From assembly GCF_030505615.1 (NCBI RefSeq), contig NZ_CP129992.1, positions 2,418,001 to 2,482,000 on the forward strand: a DNA stretch of 64,000 nt, read 5' to 3'. The stretch is from Salinibaculum rarum (lineage in GTDB: Archaea > Halobacteriota > Halobacteria > Halobacteriales > Haloarculaceae). The position numbers were made by a program, and so were the translations under genes. Of this stretch, positions 39,607 through 59,483 are shown piece after piece. The number at the start of each line of letters is the position of its first letter. Positions within the stretch are counted from its first letter, which is position 1. A model generated the notes under the pieces. It was not told the DNA's origin, did no database searches, and was given only the letters and a program-made list of their open reading frames with translations.

Positions 39607-39909
39607 ATGGTCACTCTTTACGTCACGGCCCCGGAATCAGCCGCCGACGACATCGCCCGAACCATCGTCGACGAGCGATTGGCCGCCTGTGTCAACGCAG
39701 TCCCGTGTGAGTCGACGTATCGCTGGGACGGCGCCGTCCACGAAGACAGCGAAGTCATCCTTCTGGTGAAAACGACCAGCGACGCTGTCGACCGCCTCAC
39801 CGACCGTCTCGAAAGCCTCCATCCCTACGACGTGCCCTGCATCGAGCGCTTCGATGAAGACGATGTCCTCCCAGCGTTTGCCGACTGGCGTGCAAAAAGC
39901 GTCGAGTAA
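39607..39909 (+). CDS. cutA1: Divalent-cation tolerance protein CutA1
   Basis: The 100-residue protein has the CutA1 trimer signature: TLYVTAPESAADDIARTIV, AACVNAVPCESTYRWDG, EVILLVKTTSDAVDRLTDRL and HPYDVPCIERF. It is implicated in copper or divalent-cation tolerance. ATG 39607 is the natural start. It converges on the DUF368 gene with 5 bases between. Confidence 0.93.
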   Translation: MVTLYVTAPESAADDIARTIVDERLAACVNAVPCESTYRWDGAVHEDSEVILLVKTTSDAVDRLTDRLESLHPYDVPCIERFDEDDVLPAFADWRAKSVE

Positions 39910-39914
39910 GAGCC

Positions 39915-40898
39915 TCAGGCGGCGACAGTCGAGAGGTCCTCGGTGTAGTAATCCAACAGGAGGACAGCGATAGCACCGACCAGCGCAGTCCCGAGTACTG
40001 TCGTCACGTCTGCGACCGCCGTGACCTCGACCCCGCCGAGAACTTCGGCGGCCGGGAGTCGGAGTGAGCCGACCATCAGGCTGACCAGGAACGCGATGGT
40101 CGCTTCACGGTATTCTTCGAGCGCGCGATTGACCGCGTGAGCGACGGTGAACAGGCCGATTACAGCACCACTGCCGAAGGTGACAACGACACCGACGTTC
40201 GCGAGGAGGTCATCGGCACCGAACGCCAGCAAGCCGTCGACCAGGTCGGTCAACACCCCCGTCAGGTACTCGTACTGTCCGAGAAGGATGAGCAAAAAGG
40301 CACCCGAGATACCAGGTAAAACCATCGCGGAGATTGCGACCGCACCAGCGACGAAGATGAGTGGGAGTGCGTGCCCGAGGCCGGCCCCGTTCGAGATTCC
40401 ACTCACCAGAAAGGCAAAGACGAATCCCACGATGGCCGCGCCGATCTGCAGTGGCGTCTCCAGAGAGAGCTGGTCGTAGAGCACGACCGCAGAGGCCGCA
40501 ATCAATCCGAAAAAGAAGGCGAACGTCTGCGGGCGCGCCATCGTCAACGCACCGTGAACGATTCGTGAGACGGTCACGATAGACGTTGCCACGCCAAGTC
40601 CCAGTACGACCAGAAAGTACGCGTCCATCCGGCGAAGGTCGGAAAGGACCTCTTGTCGCCCGTCGGCGCTGTCGAGTTCGGGCACCTTTCTGAGCAACCG
40701 GGGGTCGAGCGCGGTCAGCGCGTCGATGAGTCGCTCGTAGATACCCGCAATCAGCGCAATCGTGCCGCCGGAGACACCCGGAACGGAGTCTGCAGCACCC
40801 ATCGCGAGCCCTTTGAGATAGACTGTGAGCCACGCGCGCACGCCGGTCGTCGCGTGCATCGCCGGCGTCTCCTCGTCGGCTGTCGTATCAGTCGGCAC
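39915..40898 (-). CDS. DUF368 membrane protein (polyprenyl-phosphate transporter family)
   Basis: The 327-residue integral membrane protein has about eight or nine hydrophobic segments and the two internally repeated DUF368 signatures: AADSVPGVSGGTIALIAG (about 36-53) and AMVLPGISGAFLLILLGQ (about 192-209). Bacterial DUF368 proteins (PopT) return undecaprenyl phosphate to the cytoplasmic face. In a haloarchaeon the cognate lipid would be dolichyl phosphate. The first 10 or so bases of the gene overlap the end of aglB by 11, so the two are translationally coupled. This context strongly suggests recycling of the lipid carrier that AglB releases. Confidence 0.85.
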   Translation of the reverse strand: MPTDTTADEETPAMHATTGVRAWLTVYLKGLAMGAADSVPGVSGGTIALIAGIYERLIDALTALDPRLLRKVPELDSADGRQEVLSDLRRMDAYFLVVLGLGVATSIVTVSRIVHGALTMARPQTFAFFFGLIAASAVVLYDQLSLETPLQIGAAIVGFVFAFLVSGISNGAGLGHALPLIFVAGAVAISAMVLPGISGAFLLILLGQYEYLTGVLTDLVDGLLAFGADDLLANVGVVVTFGSGAVIGLFTVAHAVNRALEEYREATIAFLVSLMVGSLRLPAAEVLGGVEVTAVADVTTVLGTALVGAIAVLLLDYYTEDLSTVAA

Positions 40899-43800
40899 GG
40901 ATTGTGGTGGGTGCGGTGTCGGTAGTCAGTGATTGCTGTGCGCTCCCACCGGACGTGGTATTCGTGTCGTCGGTCGTCTCACCGTCGTCAGTCGACCCGT
41001 CAGTCGACCCGTCGGTCGTGTCGCCGTCAGTCCCGTCTGAACCGTCATCGCCACCGAAGTCGATTTCCTGGGACTGTTCTTCCAGCGTCACCTCGACTGG
41101 CGACCCGTCTTCGCTCACGACTGCCGACTCGGAGACGTTGACAGTGCCGGTGTACTGGGTGACGGTCCCGTTTTCGAAGGTCGGTGACGACGCAATCTGG
41201 TAGGGCCCCGTCGCACGGACGCTCGTGTTCGTGTGCCCGTCCTCGAGTCCAACATCATCGTAGCCCGTGCTCGCGTACGGCACCGTCGCAGTGAAGCTTC
41301 CGTCCTCGTCGGTAGTCACCTGCTGACTGTAGTCGAACGTCTCACCGTTGGCGGGGTCGAGTTCGACCTGCAGGCGGATGGTGCTGTTCGGTGCTGCACC
41401 GTCCCCTTCGATGGTCGCCCCTGGCACGCGTTCGAACGTCTTGACCCACGACGGCGTGTTCGGGTACAGCCCGTCGATTGCGGCGTTCCGGACGTCTTGC
41501 TGTGTCGCGTTCGGCGAGATACCCAGCGAGCCGAGGAAGCCAGGCGTGTTCGCATCACGGGTGAATACCTGCGAGAGGCCGCCCTGGAGCCCACTGAACT
41601 CGCTCATGTGGACGAGTCGGTAGTGTTCCAGAGCCGGGACGCGCTCCTGTGGATACGGCCCGAAGCCGCCGATCTGTGCGTCCGTATCGTTCTCGACGAA
41701 CGCCTTCGCCTCCTGCATGCTCTGGAAGCGCTTTATCGGTTGTCCGTCAGATGGCGGACTCACGACTGTATCGCCGTTGCGGAGTCGCTGTTCCCCGCCC
41801 TGCCAGTCGAGCACCCACGGCTGAGGCTCCATGGAACTGCCGTGGTAGCGGTACAGCCGAACTGCCATCGAATCGTAGTACGCCTGCTTTTGGCGGATGA
41901 CGTCTGTCCCTTGAAGGAGTCCATTCTGCTGGAGACTCTCTAGCGACGCGACACGGGTGTAGAAGTCCGACCGTGTCGTGTTGGGGTTGAACCGAATCGG
42001 CGCGAAGTACTTCCCACCAACCTGTGTCTCCGTCTCGACCATCTTCCAGTCGACCATGACATAACGCGTCTGGGCGTCGTCCTCGTCGATGTCCTCAAGC
42101 ACCTGCTCGCTCCGGCTTTCGTTCTGTGCCGTCAGGAAATTAGCGGCTTTTGTGGCCTGTTGCTGGAACGGGTTGGCGACAGGTATGTTCTCACCTTCGA
42201 CTGTAATCCAGTGGCCGTAGTCCCACCACGACATCACGCCGTAGGACCCCTCCGGATAGTCGTAGTCGTCGGTGCGAGCGTTCGTCCCGTAGTACTCCAT
42301 GACCTCACCGTCGGGGTTTGCGTACTGTCCCTGCGCTGGCGTGTTCTCTGCCATCCAGTCGAGTCCGTCCGACCAGCCGACGATACCGGCACCGGGATTT
42401 TGCGCGCGGTCGGAGCTCTCCATCGCCTGTACGCTCACGCTCGCACCAGCACCGAAGAACATCGGCGCGAGCACGATGAGAATGACCGAGACGACGGCCA
42501 TCACCTGATACGGCTCGACCTTCGAGATATCCTCGACACGAGGGATAAATCGCATCACTTCACCGACCGCGACTGCAGTCAGTGCCGCGACGGGCACGGC
42601 AAGGTAGTATCCGAAACGCGCCTGCGTGAACGTCGCAGCAATTATGAAGACGAACCAGATGGCGACGAGCAAGCGCTCACCGGACGGGTCTGTGGCCGTG
42701 AACTGTCTTGCGAGCACGAGGCCGACGCCACCGATAGCAGCGAACAGAGCCAGCCTGTAGTACGAATACAGCGTGTAGGGGTCGGAAAGGGGCTGGGCTT
42801 CACCGACCGTCTGGGCCGTCGGCGACGTCTGGAAGCCAATGACTCGCAGAACTTGGTCAACGAAATATCCAAAGAGGTCAGGCAAGACGACTGCCATGAA
42901 GCCGGCTCCAACCAGGAGGATACCGGCGACAGCTCCGGGATAACCGATCTTCGACAGCTCTCGGGCCTCCCACTGTCGGAACAGCCAGGACATGAACACA
43001 CAGCCAAAGGCGACAGCAAAGGCCAGTCCAGGCTGGAGAGCGGAGCGTGCTGTTGCGCTTATCTCAAGTGTTGCAATGGAGGGAAGTTGTAACAATCCAG
43101 CCACGACCATCGAGATGACACCCGCGAACGCCGTGTGTTCTGGACTCTGGCCGCGGACCACCTGTGCAGAGAGGTGGATAAGGAAGAACACTCCAAGAAT
43201 ACCCAGCAGCAGGACACCCGGTGGCCACGTCCAAAGATACATCGCGACAGCCACACCGGCGAGTACCGAGTAGCCAAGCGGCCGGCGGAGCGCGTCAAAG
43301 TCTCGTTCAAGTAGGAGTTCGTAAACTGGTTTCTCCTTTTGTGTAACCGAGAGGGCGACCATCACCGCGAGCACCGCCAGAGCCATAAACAGTGCTTCGG
43401 CAACTTGGTGGTCCGAGAAGCCCGCGACAGATAGCGAAAGTAGCCTGTCAGGCGCAAAGGCGATAATTGAGGCAGCCAGAACGCCAGCGAAGCGGCCACC
43501 AAGCCGGCGGCCGACGAAATACGCCGGGATGAGAACGAGTGTCCCGAACAGAGCTGGCGAGATGAGGACGACTCGACGGACCAGTTCTTCACTCGGACTC
43601 CCGAGACCGATGACCAACGCCATCGCCGCCATCAGCTGGTCGAAGAACGTGCCAAACTGAGACGGCGCAGTCCCGATGGGGAACTGTGTCCACACTTCGA
43701 ACGGCATCGTCTCCGGGAAGTTGTTGACCGTGTACTGCGTCGACCGGTAGTGATACCAGGCGTCGTTTCCACGAAAGAGAATCGTTCCATCGACGAGGTA

Positions 43801-43941
43801 TCTTCCCCAGTTTCGCGCGCGATTCCAAAACGCGAAGACGAGCAGAAAGGCGACTACGACGTAGTGGTAGTACTGGCCGAGCAACGCCGTGAAAGCGCCG
43901 GTGCCAGATTCGCCTTTGACCTGTTCGCGCCAGTTACTCAT
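40888..43941 (-). CDS. aglB: Dolichyl-phosphooligosaccharide-protein glycosyltransferase
   Basis: This is the oligosaccharyltransferase of archaeal N-glycosylation. It moves the lipid-linked glycan to Asn in N-x-S/T sequons on the outer face. The 1017-residue protein has an N-terminal membrane domain of about 13 helices (to about residue 480), the catalytic WWDYGH motif at about 571-576 (GVMSWWDYGHWITVEG), and an extracellular domain ending in a Thr/Asp-rich tail (DGSDGTDGDTTDGSTDGSTD). This tail is probably disordered and itself glycosylatable. Start ATG 43941. It is the first gene of the aglB-DUF368 unit, divergent from the GT2 gene. Confidence 0.95.
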   Translation of the reverse strand: MSNWREQVKGESGTGAFTALLGQYYHYVVVAFLLVFAFWNRARNWGRYLVDGTILFRGNDAWYHYRSTQYTVNNFPETMPFEVWTQFPIGTAPSQFGTFFDQLMAAMALVIGLGSPSEELVRRVVLISPALFGTLVLIPAYFVGRRLGGRFAGVLAASIIAFAPDRLLSLSVAGFSDHQVAEALFMALAVLAVMVALSVTQKEKPVYELLLERDFDALRRPLGYSVLAGVAVAMYLWTWPPGVLLLGILGVFFLIHLSAQVVRGQSPEHTAFAGVISMVVAGLLQLPSIATLEISATARSALQPGLAFAVAFGCVFMSWLFRQWEARELSKIGYPGAVAGILLVGAGFMAVVLPDLFGYFVDQVLRVIGFQTSPTAQTVGEAQPLSDPYTLYSYYRLALFAAIGGVGLVLARQFTATDPSGERLLVAIWFVFIIAATFTQARFGYYLAVPVAALTAVAVGEVMRFIPRVEDISKVEPYQVMAVVSVILIVLAPMFFGAGASVSVQAMESSDRAQNPGAGIVGWSDGLDWMAENTPAQGQYANPDGEVMEYYGTNARTDDYDYPEGSYGVMSWWDYGHWITVEGENIPVANPFQQQATKAANFLTAQNESRSEQVLEDIDEDDAQTRYVMVDWKMVETETQVGGKYFAPIRFNPNTTRSDFYTRVASLESLQQNGLLQGTDVIRQKQAYYDSMAVRLYRYHGSSMEPQPWVLDWQGGEQRLRNGDTVVSPPSDGQPIKRFQSMQEAKAFVENDTDAQIGGFGPYPQERVPALEHYRLVHMSEFSGLQGGLSQVFTRDANTPGFLGSLGISPNATQQDVRNAAIDGLYPNTPSWVKTFERVPGATIEGDGAAPNSTIRLQVELDPANGETFDYSQQVTTDEDGSFTATVPYASTGYDDVGLEDGHTNTSVRATGPYQIASSPTFENGTVTQYTGTVNVSESAVVSEDGSPVEVTLEEQSQEIDFGGDDGSDGTDGDTTDGSTDGSTDDGETTDDTNTTSGGSAQQSLTTDTAPTTIRAD

Positions 43942-46370: not shown

Positions 46371-47814
46371 GTGGTCATAGTGGATTGGGATGACCTCAGC
46401 AAAGACGAACTTCTCTCACGGTTTCTCCAGATGGAAGAGCGAATTGACGAGCTGGAGGAGAAACTTGAGCAAAAGGACGAACGAATCGAAGAGCAGCAAG
46501 AGCGAATCGAAGAACTCGAAACACGCCTTCGCAAATACGAGAATCCACATACACCACCGAGTAAGCGACGGTCGGGGACTGACGAGTCCCCGACCTCGCA
46601 AGACGACGAAGACGACGATGTCAGAACTGATGGCGGCACTCCCGGACGAAAGGACGGTCACGACCCGGAGTGGCGCTCTACAGCTGATCCAGACGAAGAA
46701 GTTGAGGTCACCTGTGACTGTTGTCCAGAGTGTGGCCAACACTTCGACGAGTCGGTGGGCGTCAGCCCCCGACTCGTCGAGGAGATTCCGGACCCACAGC
46801 CACCAGAAGTCACGCAATACAACCGCCACTGCTACCAGTGCGACTCCTGTGGGACTGAGACAGTCGCTACACACCCCGACTGCCCCGATGAGGGGCAGTT
46901 CGGGGTGAACGTTATCGCCCAATCAGCACTGTCGAGGTATGATTATCGCTTCCCCTATCGGAAGATTGCAGACCGTTTCGACCAGTTGCATGGACTGGAG
47001 TTGTCGGGCGCGTCCGCATGGCACGCGACCGAGCGCGCTGCGCGCGCCGGTCGCTGTGAATACAACCAGATTCGCCGTCAGATCCAGCAGGCTGACGTTG
47101 TTCATGTCGATGAGACAGGAATCAAGCGTGACGGCGAGCAGGCCTGGATCTGGACGTTCACCACCGAGAGCCACACGCTGTACGCAGTTAGAGAGTCGTG
47201 GGAGCGATGTTCCCGCGGAAGTCCTCGGCGAGGACTTCGCGGGAACGGTCATCTGTGATGGATGGACGGCCTATCCAGCCTTCAGCGACAACTTACAGCG
47301 GTGTTGGGCACATATTCTGCGAGAGGCTGAAGATGTCGCTGAGAAGCAGCCAGAAGGCAAACCGATCTACGACTCTCTCAAGCAGTTGTACGTCGCTCTC
47401 CAGACTCGGCTGGAGAGCGACTTGACCATTCGTGAGCGAGCTGAACTACAGCGCGTAGCACGTAGAGAGGTTGAGTCGTTGATTGAGCGGTCAGTTCCCG
47501 ACGGACCAGTGGCAACACTGCTCGGAAAGATAGAAGGTGGCCTCGACCACTGGCTCACCTTCGTCGGTGAGCCAGCGGTCTCTCCGACAAACAACGCCGC
47601 CGAAAACGCGCTCCGTGAACCGGTGGTCCTACGGAAACTTATCGGAACGCTCCGGAACGATCGCGGAATGTTCGTTCATGAGACGCTGCTGTCCCTGCTG
47701 GCGACGTGGCGCCAGCAGGGACGCAATCCCTACGACGAACTCAAGCGAGTTTCCCGAGACAACGAGATGATTTCACGGACTCAGGCTGTGCCGGCCGTTG
47801 AATCCTCGGGGTAA
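46371..47814 (+). pseudogene. IS66-family transposase, frameshifted
   Basis: The reading is split into two overlapping frames, 46371-47258 and 46939-47814. The first contains a coiled coil (about 15-60), a zinc-like region with CDCCPECG and CYQCDSCG, and the first catalytic part (VVHVDETGIKRDG). The second supplies WTAYPAFSDNLQRCWAHILREAED and SPTNNAAENALREPVVLRKLIGT, the IS66 C-terminal part. The two join with a one-base shift near 47195-47200 (a VRESRGSDV sequence would be restored), so the gene is most likely dead. A programmed frameshift is less likely. Confidence 0.8.
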
Positions 47815-47822
47815 ACACGTAC

Positions 47823-47830
47823 GATTCAAT
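47823..47830. repeat. Right copy of 8-bp target-site duplication
   Basis: GATTCAAT directly follows the right terminal repeat of the IS66-type element. Identical flanks show that the insertion is structurally intact. Confidence 0.8.
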
Positions 47831-48092
47831 AAAATCTGAATGATCTGCTAAATCCTATCAGCGCTATCCAAATGAGGTGTGATTGCGGAAATGACGCGAA
47901 GACTTCTCTCAGAGTCGGTACTTCCCAACCAGCGTAATCAGCTGAATTGAATCGCCGAATTAACCACGGGAAAGTGTCTGGATCTGGATGTGTTTACCAT
48001 ACCCGATCCAGACGGGTTCCTTTCGGCGTCGGATGTCAAAGACGTAGCGGAAGAGGTCATTACCGCCCTGCCCTTGCCGGGTGTCGAGGGGA
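47831..48092. other. Short spacer between insertion sequences with possible coding remnant
   Basis: About 260 bases lie between the IS66 element and the truncated IS630. From 47994, the + frame reads FTIPDPDGFLSASDVKDVAE then EVITALPLPGVEG. The start looks truncated, and the frame then runs into the IS630 left end. This may be a remnant of a host gene destroyed by the insertions. I cannot identify it. Confidence 0.3.
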
Positions 48093-48757
48093 TAATGAGT
48101 GACCGAAGTTATGGGCATAGCATGAGATTGGAAGGTTATGGGTGGAGATCGCCGGATAGAGATTGTTCGGCATTTGGATGAAGAGGAATTGGATCGTCTG
48201 CTGGACGAAGCAGACGATCCAAAGGTTACGAAGCGGCTCACATTTGTCAAGCGTCTCTACAAGGGAGCAAATTTGGAAGACGCAGCTGACGATGTTGGCA
48301 AGTCCGCTTCGACAGGAAGTCGCTGGGCGCGCCGCTGGAATGAAGGCGGACTTGGACTACTCACGCCGAACTTCGGGGCCGGTAGGCCCCCGAAGCTCGG
48401 CGAAGAGCAACAAGAGCAGTTGCTTGAGATGCTTCGCGAGGATCAACCGTGGAAAGCACAGGAAATACACCACCTCATTGACGAAGAGTTCGGCGTTCAG
48501 TACCACCCTGATTATCTCCATCGCTTCCTCCGTGATCTTGGCTTATCGTACGCAAAACCACGTCCACAGCGCCCTTCTCAGCCGGAGAACTCCGAGGAAA
48601 TCCTCGAAGAACGCGTCGGAGACGCGTTCGACGAGGATGATCAGACACCACACAACAAGCACCCGGATGACGATGACGAAGGCTGGGTCCTCGACGACGA
48701 TGTTTGTACAGATGGTGGCACAGTTGTCGGTTTTTGTGATGCGTCGCATCCACAACC
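48093..48757 (+). pseudogene. Truncated IS630-family transposase and left end
   Basis: The start ATG 48138 encodes 207 residues, aligning with the N-terminal part of the complete IS630 transposase at 55409-56515: a helix-turn-helix (NLEDAADDVGKSASTGSRWARRWNEGG), FGAGRPPKLGEEQQEQL and VVGFCDASHPQP. After HPQP the similarity ends exactly where another element's end begins (48758). The DDE core's last part is missing. The left end TAATGAGTGACCGAAG at 48093 resembles the IS630 end TAGTACCTCAGGGAAG at 56563, reading leftwards. This is a dead copy cut by the element to its right. Confidence 0.72.
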
Positions 48758-49880
48758 CTACGGCGGGCGTGCAGAAGAGTTCTCATAGCTCAACGATCGG
48801 ACTTGCGATGTCACCTCCTCGTTCATGGTTAGCGATGACGACAGCCAAACGAAGACAGAGAGCGACGAAGACGTGAGTTTTTGCCCGTTCTCGGCCTCGG
48901 ACTTGCGGAGTCCCGAGGCCGAGATCCTTGCACACGCCGATTGCTGTTTCGACCTGTGACCGGTTATCGTAGGTGTCGTCAAGCTGCTTTTCCCAGACGC
49001 GGACAGTGTCGCTATGTTCCTTGATTCGTTTCTGGATGCGGTACTCGATATCTGGTGGATCATTTGTGTTCCGTGGATTGTACGGAACCACTGGCACGAC
49101 GCCTGCTTCAATCAGGTCGTCGTGCCAGTCCAACATGTCGAACTCTGCGTCACCAACGAACGTGACTGGCTTTTTGACGGCGAGCGCATCCTGTGTGATG
49201 CGCCTCGCCGTCGCCTTGTCCACAGATTTCTCATCTGTGAACTCTGCGGCAATCGGGATGTTGTTGTCGGTCGTCACCAGACAGCAACCGTAGCCGTAGT
49301 AAGTCTCCTCAGCTGTACTGTCGTAGTTCCACGAGGCATCCTCGTCCGGGCGAGGCGCCCGGACATCGGTGCCGTCAATCCGAAAGCAAGAACCCAGTTC
49401 AACTCGGACGAGCACTTGCTGGAGAATTCGTGAGAAGACTTCCTCAACGACACCAGAGAGCTCGTCGATAAACCGGCCAATCGTCCGCCGTGACGGCGGT
49501 CGCTCGAACTCGCAGACACGCCAGACATCATCGTTGGCGAGTTCTTGAGCCATCGCTTCTGGTTCGTAGATTCTGTTGTAGAAGCAGTGAAGCAATCCTC
49601 GGAACAGTTCAGGTGGATGGAACTCCCGCGTTCGCCCCCGCGGATCGGGGGCGAACACGGGGAATTCATAGAGAAACTGGAGATCAAGATGTTCGAATAG
49701 TACTGTTGTCTCGGTTTCCAGTGATTTCAAGACCTCTGTGATCGTATCTTGGTGTGGCAGGGTAGTGGTTGACACATCTCACTGTCCCTGCCTCATCTCC
49801 GAGAGAGTTCCTATCGATCCTCCAGAATCGCTGATCAGCCAGCAGAGCCGTGCTAACTATTCTGCACGCCCGCCCCGTAG
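48758..49880 (-). mobile_element. IS5/IS4-superfamily insertion sequence
   Basis: About 1123 bp with near-identical inverted repeats. The left end is CTACGGCGGGCGTGCAGAA (48758-48776). On the right, TTCTGCACGCCCGCCCCGTAG (49860-49880) is its reverse complement with two extra Gs. It contains one intact transposase gene on the minus strand. It truncates the IS630 copy to its left. I see no clear target duplication, suggesting a rearrangement on the right side. Confidence 0.7.
48783..49775 (-). CDS. Transposase, IS5/IS4-type DDE enzyme
   Basis: The 330-residue protein has an N-terminal DNA-binding region (FHPPELFRGLLHCFYNR, then SRRTIGRFIDELSG) and a DDE domain with FRIDGTDVRAPRPDEDASW and VTFVGDAEFDMLDWHDDL. 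The C-terminal YDNRSQVETAIGVCKDLGLG may contain the catalytic Glu. It appears intact. It catalyses cut-and-paste movement of the element. Confidence 0.78.
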   Translation of the reverse strand: MSTTTLPHQDTITEVLKSLETETTVLFEHLDLQFLYEFPVFAPDPRGRTREFHPPELFRGLLHCFYNRIYEPEAMAQELANDDVWRVCEFERPPSRRTIGRFIDELSGVVEEVFSRILQQVLVRVELGSCFRIDGTDVRAPRPDEDASWNYDSTAEETYYGYGCCLVTTDNNIPIAAEFTDEKSVDKATARRITQDALAVKKPVTFVGDAEFDMLDWHDDLIEAGVVPVVPYNPRNTNDPPDIEYRIQKRIKEHSDTVRVWEKQLDDTYDNRSQVETAIGVCKDLGLGTPQVRGRERAKTHVFVALCLRLAVVIANHERGGDIASPIVEL

Positions 49881-49933
49881 TAGCAGCTGAGACTGGCCGT
49901 CTAATCATACAGAAAGTGACTGTTTTGTGGCGT

Positions 49934-50770
49934 TCAGGCAGCACTCTCTCGACTCATTTGGGAAGTAACGATGTTGGTAATGGCGAACATCAGAACGATT
50001 TCACGGAACTGCCGATACCACTTCAGCGCTCGCACGGCTCGCCGAGCGAGCGCTTTGTTGTCGAGTAGGATGTTTCCGCCATCCAGCGCTGAGTGTATCC
50101 TTTTGCCCGGATGAGTGCGTTGTTCGCGGTTGCATTCAGTGATGAACCGCGGTAGTGAACGAGGTAGTCGAGATTTAGCGCAGCAATCTCGTATTCGGTG
50201 TGCCAGTCTTGGAACCCGTTATCGGCGGCGACAGTGTGCAGATCGTCCGCGTTCCGGCGGACGATCTGCGGACCAGTCTTCGTATCATGCCTCCATTGGG
50301 CGTGACACTGCACATCGAGAACAGCAAGTGACTCTGTATCAGTCAGTGTCGTCACTTTGAGCGTTTCTACCGACCGATCAGACCGGGTACGGTAGTACGC
50401 TGAGGCGTGGCCTCGGTCGAAGAACGTGCTGTCGAGGGCGACGTGACCGGACAGCGTGTGTTGCTGCGCTGAAACGCGCAGTAACGCCCGCCAGACCCAC
50501 ATTTTGAACCGATCGAACGACTTGTTGAGTGTGGTGAAGTCAGGTATGTCTCCTTCCTCCAGATCGAGTACCTCCAGTAGTGCGGTCATGTAACTCCAGC
50601 CGGTTTTCCGTTTCACGGAAGCTATGCCCCTCCTCACGGCGGAAACAGTGAATGACGACGTGCTTCCAGCGGGCGAACCCGCCGCTGGCGGGCTCGCCCG
50701 CGTGCCTCCCTAAAGCTTGTTTAGCCAGGTGCCGACACTCTTCCACGAAGTCGAGGATATCGACTTCCAT
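49934..50770 (-). pseudogene. Decayed IS5-family transposase with two frameshifts
   Basis: The N-terminal part (MEVDILDFVEECRHLAKQAL, RWKHVVIHCFRREEGHSFRE) is in one frame. The middle (YMTALLEVLDLEEGDIPDF, HVALDSTFFDRGHASAYY, VAADNGFQDWHTE, QRWMAETSYSTTKRSLG) is in a second frame, 50023-50637. The C-terminus (WYRQFREIVLMFAITNIVT, ending near 49934) is in a third. The breaks are near 50590 and 50040. It resembles haloarchaeal ISH-type IS5 enzymes. It is clearly dead. Confidence 0.68.
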
Positions 50771-58055: not shown

Positions 58056-59483
58056 TCAAGCGAGTGCTGCTGTGAGGAGAGCATAAACTTTCCTCCGGAT
58101 TCTTCCAGAGAGCGCGAACAGCACCGTGAAGTAAGTCGCCGCCCCAAGTCCGACAACGGGAAGCAACAGCAACACGGAACGGATATCAACGAACTGCCTC
58201 GTCCCAAGAACCACCAACGACATAACCGTCGCTGCGAGCGCTTGCTCCCCGAGCTCATCAATCGGTACGGCTATGTCTACCTCAGAAGTGACAGCCCTCC
58301 ACGAAAGCCCGAGCGTAATTCCAACCGATATCACAGTAGCTATAACTGCACCGACAACGCCAAACATGGGGATAAGTGCCACGTTAAGGAGTACATTCAG
58401 AATTATGAATATAAGGTTAATCCGGAACGTAACATCCGGTAAATCGAGTCCATTAAGTGCGGCAAGTAGCTGTTCCTGATAACCCCGTAGTACCACGGCC
58501 GAAGCAAGGCCGACGAGAATCCACTTTCCAGTCGTAAACTCTGGACCGTAGATGCTGAGTACGGGGCGACCAATAACGAGTGCCCCTATCAAGCCGCCGA
58601 TCGGGATGATGCTGGTATAGATTAGTGACTCATAGACGATCTGTTCAACACGTGCACGGTTCTCCGCGGCGTTCACGTTCGAAACTTCAGGAAAGAGGTT
58701 GTTCTGGAGTGCACGGCCGACGATACCGAAGAACATCGCGAGCGTCCAGGCCACCCGATAGACTCCAACTTGGGACTGTACGACGAAGAAACCTAACACA
58801 GTTATATCAACCCAAGAATATGCATGGCTCCGTATTGAGGAGAGTACAGAGTATTTTGCATAATCATAGAGACTAACTATGTGGTCAAGACCGGGACGAG
58901 CGAGGCCTGCATCAAGAAAACGAAAGAGGTAACAAATACCAATAATGGCCGCAAACGCGTAGCTGGCCACGACACCGGCAAACATACCGAATATTTCAGC
59001 CCCGAAAGCTACAAGGGTAACCTGGACCACAACCCGGACCAATCGCTCCAGAGCGTCAAGAATATCAGCAACATCTGCACGCTGGTACCCACGGATTGAC
59101 TGCTGTAAAGCGCCGTTGATGGCATAGCTGACGAAGAAAATCGCAGCGATAAGGAATGCATACTCGCCGCCCACGTATGAGTTTATTGAGTTACGAAACG
59201 TCACCACAAGCAGAACCACAACCAGTCCAATCACCCACTGTATCGCCATCGCGGCCGTGAGATACTGTGTGCTGTCCTGCCCCTCACTAATCCGCTTAAC
59301 TGCAGATGGAGTGAGACCTAGGTCCGCTAATTGTAGCCATTTAACGACGCTCATACCCAGCGCGAAAACTCCTAATGCAGCAGCACCGAGCGTACGTGCA
59401 AAGTAGAGTGTTCCGAGAAAGCCAACGACTGATATGACGACGTAGGAGAATGTCGAAGTGAGGATTTTATGAGTGAGTTTCAT
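58056..59483 (-). CDS. Polysaccharide flippase (Wzx/AglR-like)
   Basis: The 475-residue integral membrane protein has about 14 hydrophobic segments and belongs to the MATE-like polysaccharide biosynthesis transporters. The N-terminal FARTLGAAALGVFALG and LADLGLTPSAVKRISEG match Wzx/RfbX. In haloarchaea this class includes AglR, which affects delivery of lipid-linked glycan to the outer face. It lies in the glycan island in the expected role of flipping the charged lipid for AglB. It converges on the phosphodiesterase-like gene, 24 bases apart. A TATA-like AATATTAA lies at about 59495-59503. Confidence 0.85.
   Translation of the reverse strand: MKLTHKILTSTFSYVVISVVGFLGTLYFARTLGAAALGVFALGMSVVKWLQLADLGLTPSAVKRISEGQDSTQYLTAAMAIQWVIGLVVVLLVVTFRNSINSYVGGEYAFLIAAIFFVSYAINGALQQSIRGYQRADVADILDALERLVRVVVQVTLVAFGAEIFGMFAGVVASYAFAAIIGICYLFRFLDAGLARPGLDHIVSLYDYAKYSVLSSIRSHAYSWVDITVLGFFVVQSQVGVYRVAWTLAMFFGIVGRALQNNLFPEVSNVNAAENRARVEQIVYESLIYTSIIPIGGLIGALVIGRPVLSIYGPEFTTGKWILVGLASAVVLRGYQEQLLAALNGLDLPDVTFRINLIFIILNVLLNVALIPMFGVVGAVIATVISVGITLGLSWRAVTSEVDIAVPIDELGEQALAATVMSLVVLGTRQFVDIRSVLLLLPVVGLGAATYFTVLFALSGRIRRKVYALLTAALA

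Follow-up and report, generated by a model that had tools for sequence, protein, structure and literature searches.

How dolichyl phosphate (DolP) gets back to the cytoplasmic face of the membrane once N-glycosylation has taken place is not well defined in archaea, and is debated in eukaryotes. In the stretch of 64,000 nucleotides of the Salinibaculum rarum genome analyzed here (the window), the gene of the oligosaccharyltransferase AglB is directly followed by that of a DUF368 membrane protein, which raises the question of whether the second protein serves the enzyme encoded before it, and in which step. Haloarchaeal glycans are assembled on dolichol phosphate and are transferred by AglB after outward flipping, the flippases of the loaded carrier being only partly defined (PMC3871713). 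DUF368 and DedA proteins, in turn, have been identified as bacterial undecaprenyl-phosphate translocases (PMC9876793; PMC12826051); when they are lost, undecaprenyl phosphate stays behind in the outer leaflet (PMC12826051). Knowledge of the family and of its general activity already includes an archaeal member, since the DUF368 protein of Haloferax volcanii at least partly complements deletion of the DUF368 gene VCA0040 in Vibrio cholerae (PMC9876793). The authors of these works cautioned that the transport has yet to be proven biochemically, and raised dolichol phosphate in general terms only (PMC9876793; PMC12826051); the literature searched contained no assay that directly tested an archaeal DUF368 protein on DolP, or the direction of its transport.

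The aglB-DUF368 locus

The aglB gene is located on the minus strand (43941..40888, with an ATG start at 43941) and encodes a protein of 1017 amino acids with the STT3 (PF02516), AglB core (PF22627) and AglB_L1 (PF18079) domains in Pfam, which identify it as AglB. The DUF368 gene lies on the same strand (40898..39915, with a GTG start at 40898), encodes a membrane protein of 327 amino acids that is a candidate DolP translocase, and is the sole DUF368 copy in the genome. Open reading frame coordinates and Pfam agree with the earlier note that the DUF368 gene directly follows aglB with an overlap of 11 bases, which extends from the DUF368 start to the aglB stop (40888..40898, minus strand). An alternative in-frame ATG at 40859, 39 bases further in, would replace the overlap with a gap of 28 bases. 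Both the GTG start and the overlap are likely to be genuine, because they are also present, in identical form, in the sister species, which provides the one further genome of the genus and in which the DUF368 protein is 72% identical to that of the window, the N-terminus matches ('MP[TS]DT'), and the next ATG falls within the first membrane helix, leaving no usable ATG.

On one side, the pair is flanked by a divergent family-2 glycosyltransferase gene (PF00535; 44085..45020, plus strand) and, on the other, by a convergent CutA1-like gene (39607..39909, plus strand), which ends 5 bases short of the DUF368 stop and is the downstream boundary of the unit, lying outside the unit itself. With a divergent gene at one end and a convergent one at the other, aglB and DUF368 form a two-gene unit. 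Similar aglB-centred neighbourhoods, with glycosyltransferases and Wzx-like flippases, are found in other haloarchaeal agl clusters (HVO_1517-1531 and others), whose descriptions make no mention of DUF368 (PMC3871713; PMC4335974). In the open-access papers searched, we found no description of a conserved aglB-DUF368 pair.

Beyond these genes, transposase remnants were observed beside the glycosylation genes (46371..50637), including a fragment of an HTH transposase, DDE transposases, and an IS66-type transposase split across two frames (46371..47258 and 46939..47814). Further surface-glycan genes are scattered among transposases between 50996 and 62593, namely three family-4 glycosyltransferases, a sulfatase-like gene and a Wzx/MurJ-like flippase (58056..59483).

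Kinship and predicted fold of the DUF368 protein

The protein from the window matches PF04018 (COG2035), presently labelled 'undecaprenyl phosphate translocase-like' in Pfam, over residues 33-280 with an E-value of 9.9e-62 and 209 bits, far over the cut-off of 26, and it groups with other archaeal DUF368 members in the tree. It shares roughly 31-37% identity with bacterial members, including that of Vibrio, and has the PG[VI]SGGT and LPGISG motifs in common with them, Vibrio and Photobacterium included; these motif columns are invariant or nearly so in both alignments (A1 and A2), and the longer invariant forms, GxxMGxxDxxPGVSGGT and AM-LPGISG, are those of the PopT/DUF368 proteins such as VCA0040. 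The earlier proposal of an archaeal analogue of PopT fits the complementation by the H. volcanii protein as far as activity is concerned, but understates the relationship, as the window protein is a true member of the family. It differs from bacterial PopT in being encoded with an archaeal oligosaccharyltransferase, in its expected substrate, which is dolichyl rather than undecaprenyl phosphate, and in its sequence, at about 35% identity to the bacterial members.

An AlphaFold2 model (pLDDT 90.4) predicts an all-helical, polytopic protein of 14 helices with an internal repeat, and its N-terminal half is homologous to the C-terminal one (HHalign probability 98.2%, E 3e-14), each carrying one PG[VI]SG hairpin. 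Two homologous halves are a common arrangement in membrane transporters. No relative with a solved structure was returned by searches with the sequence, nor by fold comparison at E <= 0.001.

Two other families have been linked to carrier recycling. The DedA/VTT domain proteins (PF09335, UptA) have been proposed to carry out the same step, but belong to an unrelated Pfam family and are encoded outside the aglB pair. UppP/BacA (PF02673) is present in the same genome, also acts in polyprenyl carrier recycling and also has a PG-S motif, but is a phosphatase. Because of this motif and a weak structure match (E 0.44), kinship between DUF368 and UppP/BacA was considered, and none could be shown: the profile comparison gave a probability of 1.6%, and PF02673 was not among the Pfam matches of the window protein.

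Conservation and history of the pair in Halobacteria

The neighbourhood survey that the earlier note had proposed clearly supports the linkage; it was carried out by searching 146 Halobacteria genomes for DUF368 and the AglB core, each of which was detected in 145, and by comparing positions in the 140 genomes in which both could be placed. DUF368 is the next gene downstream of aglB, in the same orientation, in 95 of these 140 genomes, representing 40 of 59 genera and nine of ten families, the tenth family being a single genome without DUF368. A further five genomes have both genes within about 3.4 kb, which brings the linked total to 100/140, mostly with overlapping or abutting frames, while the genes are apart in the remaining 40. 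Four of those five carry between the two genes an insert that was assigned from its sequence, and not by profile search, to the AglM-type UDP-sugar dehydrogenases, and the fifth (G043) carries an insert to which this assignment does not extend. AglM is a UDP-sugar dehydrogenase that functions in N-glycosylation. The order aglB-aglM-DUF368 seen in such genomes is what we would expect in H. volcanii as well. Moreover, among 15 haloarchaeal loci that were retrieved from named or MAG records purely by sequence, 10 have aglB directly upstream of DUF368, and the same order occurs in independently fetched named genomes of Halorhabdus, Halorubrum, Halolamina, Natrinema and Halostagnicola. Judging solely from open-frame lengths in the survey, no fusion of AglB with DUF368 was evident.

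Such an arrangement is far beyond the chance expectation of about 0.0004 per genome, a figure that assumes random placement and ignores shared descent. Other neighbours in the same loci have, however, turned over. Across 41 linked loci, for the most part a single one from each genus and all having AglB beside DUF368 by sampling, no other neighbour family reaches half of the loci, the most frequent being a family-2 glycosyltransferase in 17/41, on the far side of aglB; the same glycosyltransferase family is found in 18 of 20 aglB loci without DUF368. That the surroundings were replaced while the pair stayed suggests selection for joint expression. In 26 of 40 sampled linked loci, the first possible DUF368 start falls between positions -4 and +6 relative to the aglB stop, frequently in a junction of the ATGA or TAATG type, which leaves no space for a promoter; these abutting or overlapping junctions favour translational coupling of the two genes. 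The earlier note took the overlap to show that both proteins are made from one mRNA, which is more than an overlap can show; it does make co-transcription likely, and a single shared transcript is what we infer from it.

Linked and functionally unrelated genes could also persist side by side, as neutral neighbours can do in related genomes, and the distance matrices of AglB and DUF368, compared in a mirror-tree style, are no better correlated in linked loci (0.38) than in unlinked ones (0.79), so that no sign of special co-evolution between the proteins was obtained. Nevertheless, with the pair maintained across 40 genera and nine families, its frames abutting or overlapping and the other flanking genes replaced, we regard a neutral adjacency as extremely improbable.

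In the tree, the DUF368 sequences of haloarchaea fall on a single branch (support 100), which lies beside the methanogen rows but is distinct from them and from the bacterial ones. As linked copies are spread over deep haloarchaeal branches, the pair was probably ancestral in haloarchaea. Most unlinked copies belong to a single clade, lineage B, with 18 rows (L072-L082, L088-L091, L147, L153, L197; SH-aLRT 96) from part of the Haloarculaceae and from Natrialbaceae, family names having been given to group codes after the named rows in the tree. In our sample, lineage B is never found beside aglB, and it is the only DUF368 copy in many genomes. Constraining the window's own family to a single clade was rejected (p 1e-53), which indicates that a distinct copy replaced, or was added to, the linked one in these lineages; in some genera it seems to have replaced it, with AglB retained. 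Five Natrialbaceae genomes have two DUF368 copies, one of them beside aglB. Evidently, a DUF368 gene at another site in the genome can provide the function.

A strict dedication of DUF368 to AglB is not supported, given the 40 genomes in which the genes are apart, one haloarchaeal genome rated 100% complete (G119) that has DUF368 and in which STT3/AglB was undetected, and another (G021) with AglB and no DUF368. DUF368 could instead be a general polyprenyl-phosphate translocase for all DolP users, its position beside aglB being inherited or a matter of matching expression, with no special partnership. The replacement by lineage B, the retention of DUF368 in G119, and the neighbours in the Pfam-scanned unlinked loci, which are not glycosylation genes, are all consistent with such a role. 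The pair outlived rearrangement in 40 genera as all other neighbours changed, though, which again suggests selection for joint expression, and we consider this reading unlikely.

Return of the lipid carrier as the proposed function

When a glycan is transferred off a carrier with a single phosphate, DolP itself is what remains. The only step missing is then its return across the membrane, and the best reading of the pair is that a PopT-type protein recycles the DolP released by AglB. We thus consider it probable that aglB and DUF368 constitute an N-glycosylation unit that is bicistronic and probably translationally coupled. On the outer face, AglB would transfer the glycan from its DolP carrier to asparagine, and bare DolP would remain there; DUF368, as an archaeal PopT, would carry it back to the cytoplasmic face, and glycan assembly on the carrier could begin anew. 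The PG[VI]SG hairpins of both halves are suggested to form the lining of the route that the phosphate head group takes. Like the single mRNA, the role of these hairpins, DolP as the substrate and the inward direction are inferred.

DUF368 might also move another lipid or act in the opposite direction, for instance flipping glycan-loaded DolP outwards to AglB, as its gene adjoins that of the enzyme that uses the loaded carrier, for which haloarchaeal flippases are only partly defined. The usual candidate for this task is, however, a Wzx/MurJ-like protein, such as those encoded in the window and beside aglB in other loci. Moreover, loss of bacterial DUF368 leaves the bare carrier phosphate outside, and the H. 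volcanii protein is functional in just this setting, which makes an outward or unrelated transport very unlikely when compared to the return of DolP.

A stronger form of the recycling reading, in which AglB and PopT make up a dedicated, physically coupled machine and released DolP is handed straight to the translocase, is one that we find rather doubtful; if true, the carrier-return step would be built into haloarchaeal N-glycosylation. All of the 43 haloarchaea that were checked have VTT/DedA proteins, the genome of the window giving four matches, and the return step may be redundant, since these proteins could do the same job. Overall, the conserved pair provides a named candidate for DolP return in genetically tractable haloarchaea, and would carry the concept of carrier recycling, known from bacteria, over to protein glycosylation.

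Outside Halobacteria, DUF368 is uncommon, being present in 34 of 204 genomes of the phylum, so that other archaea must return the carrier by other means. A complementary distribution of DUF368 and VTT/DedA in these genomes was considered and found to be weak (9/34 versus 79/170, Fisher p 0.037), and it is confounded by descent. In one methanogen family (f29), aglB and DUF368 lie on the same strand 13-15 kb apart in four of five genomes, with unrelated genes such as a chaperonin between them, and these loci were not counted in support of linkage. In a Thermoplasmata MAG (L146:1515-8172), aglB, AMMECR1, dihydroorotase and DUF368 genes follow one another on the same strand, with two genes inside the pair; this is possibly an independent or older linkage.
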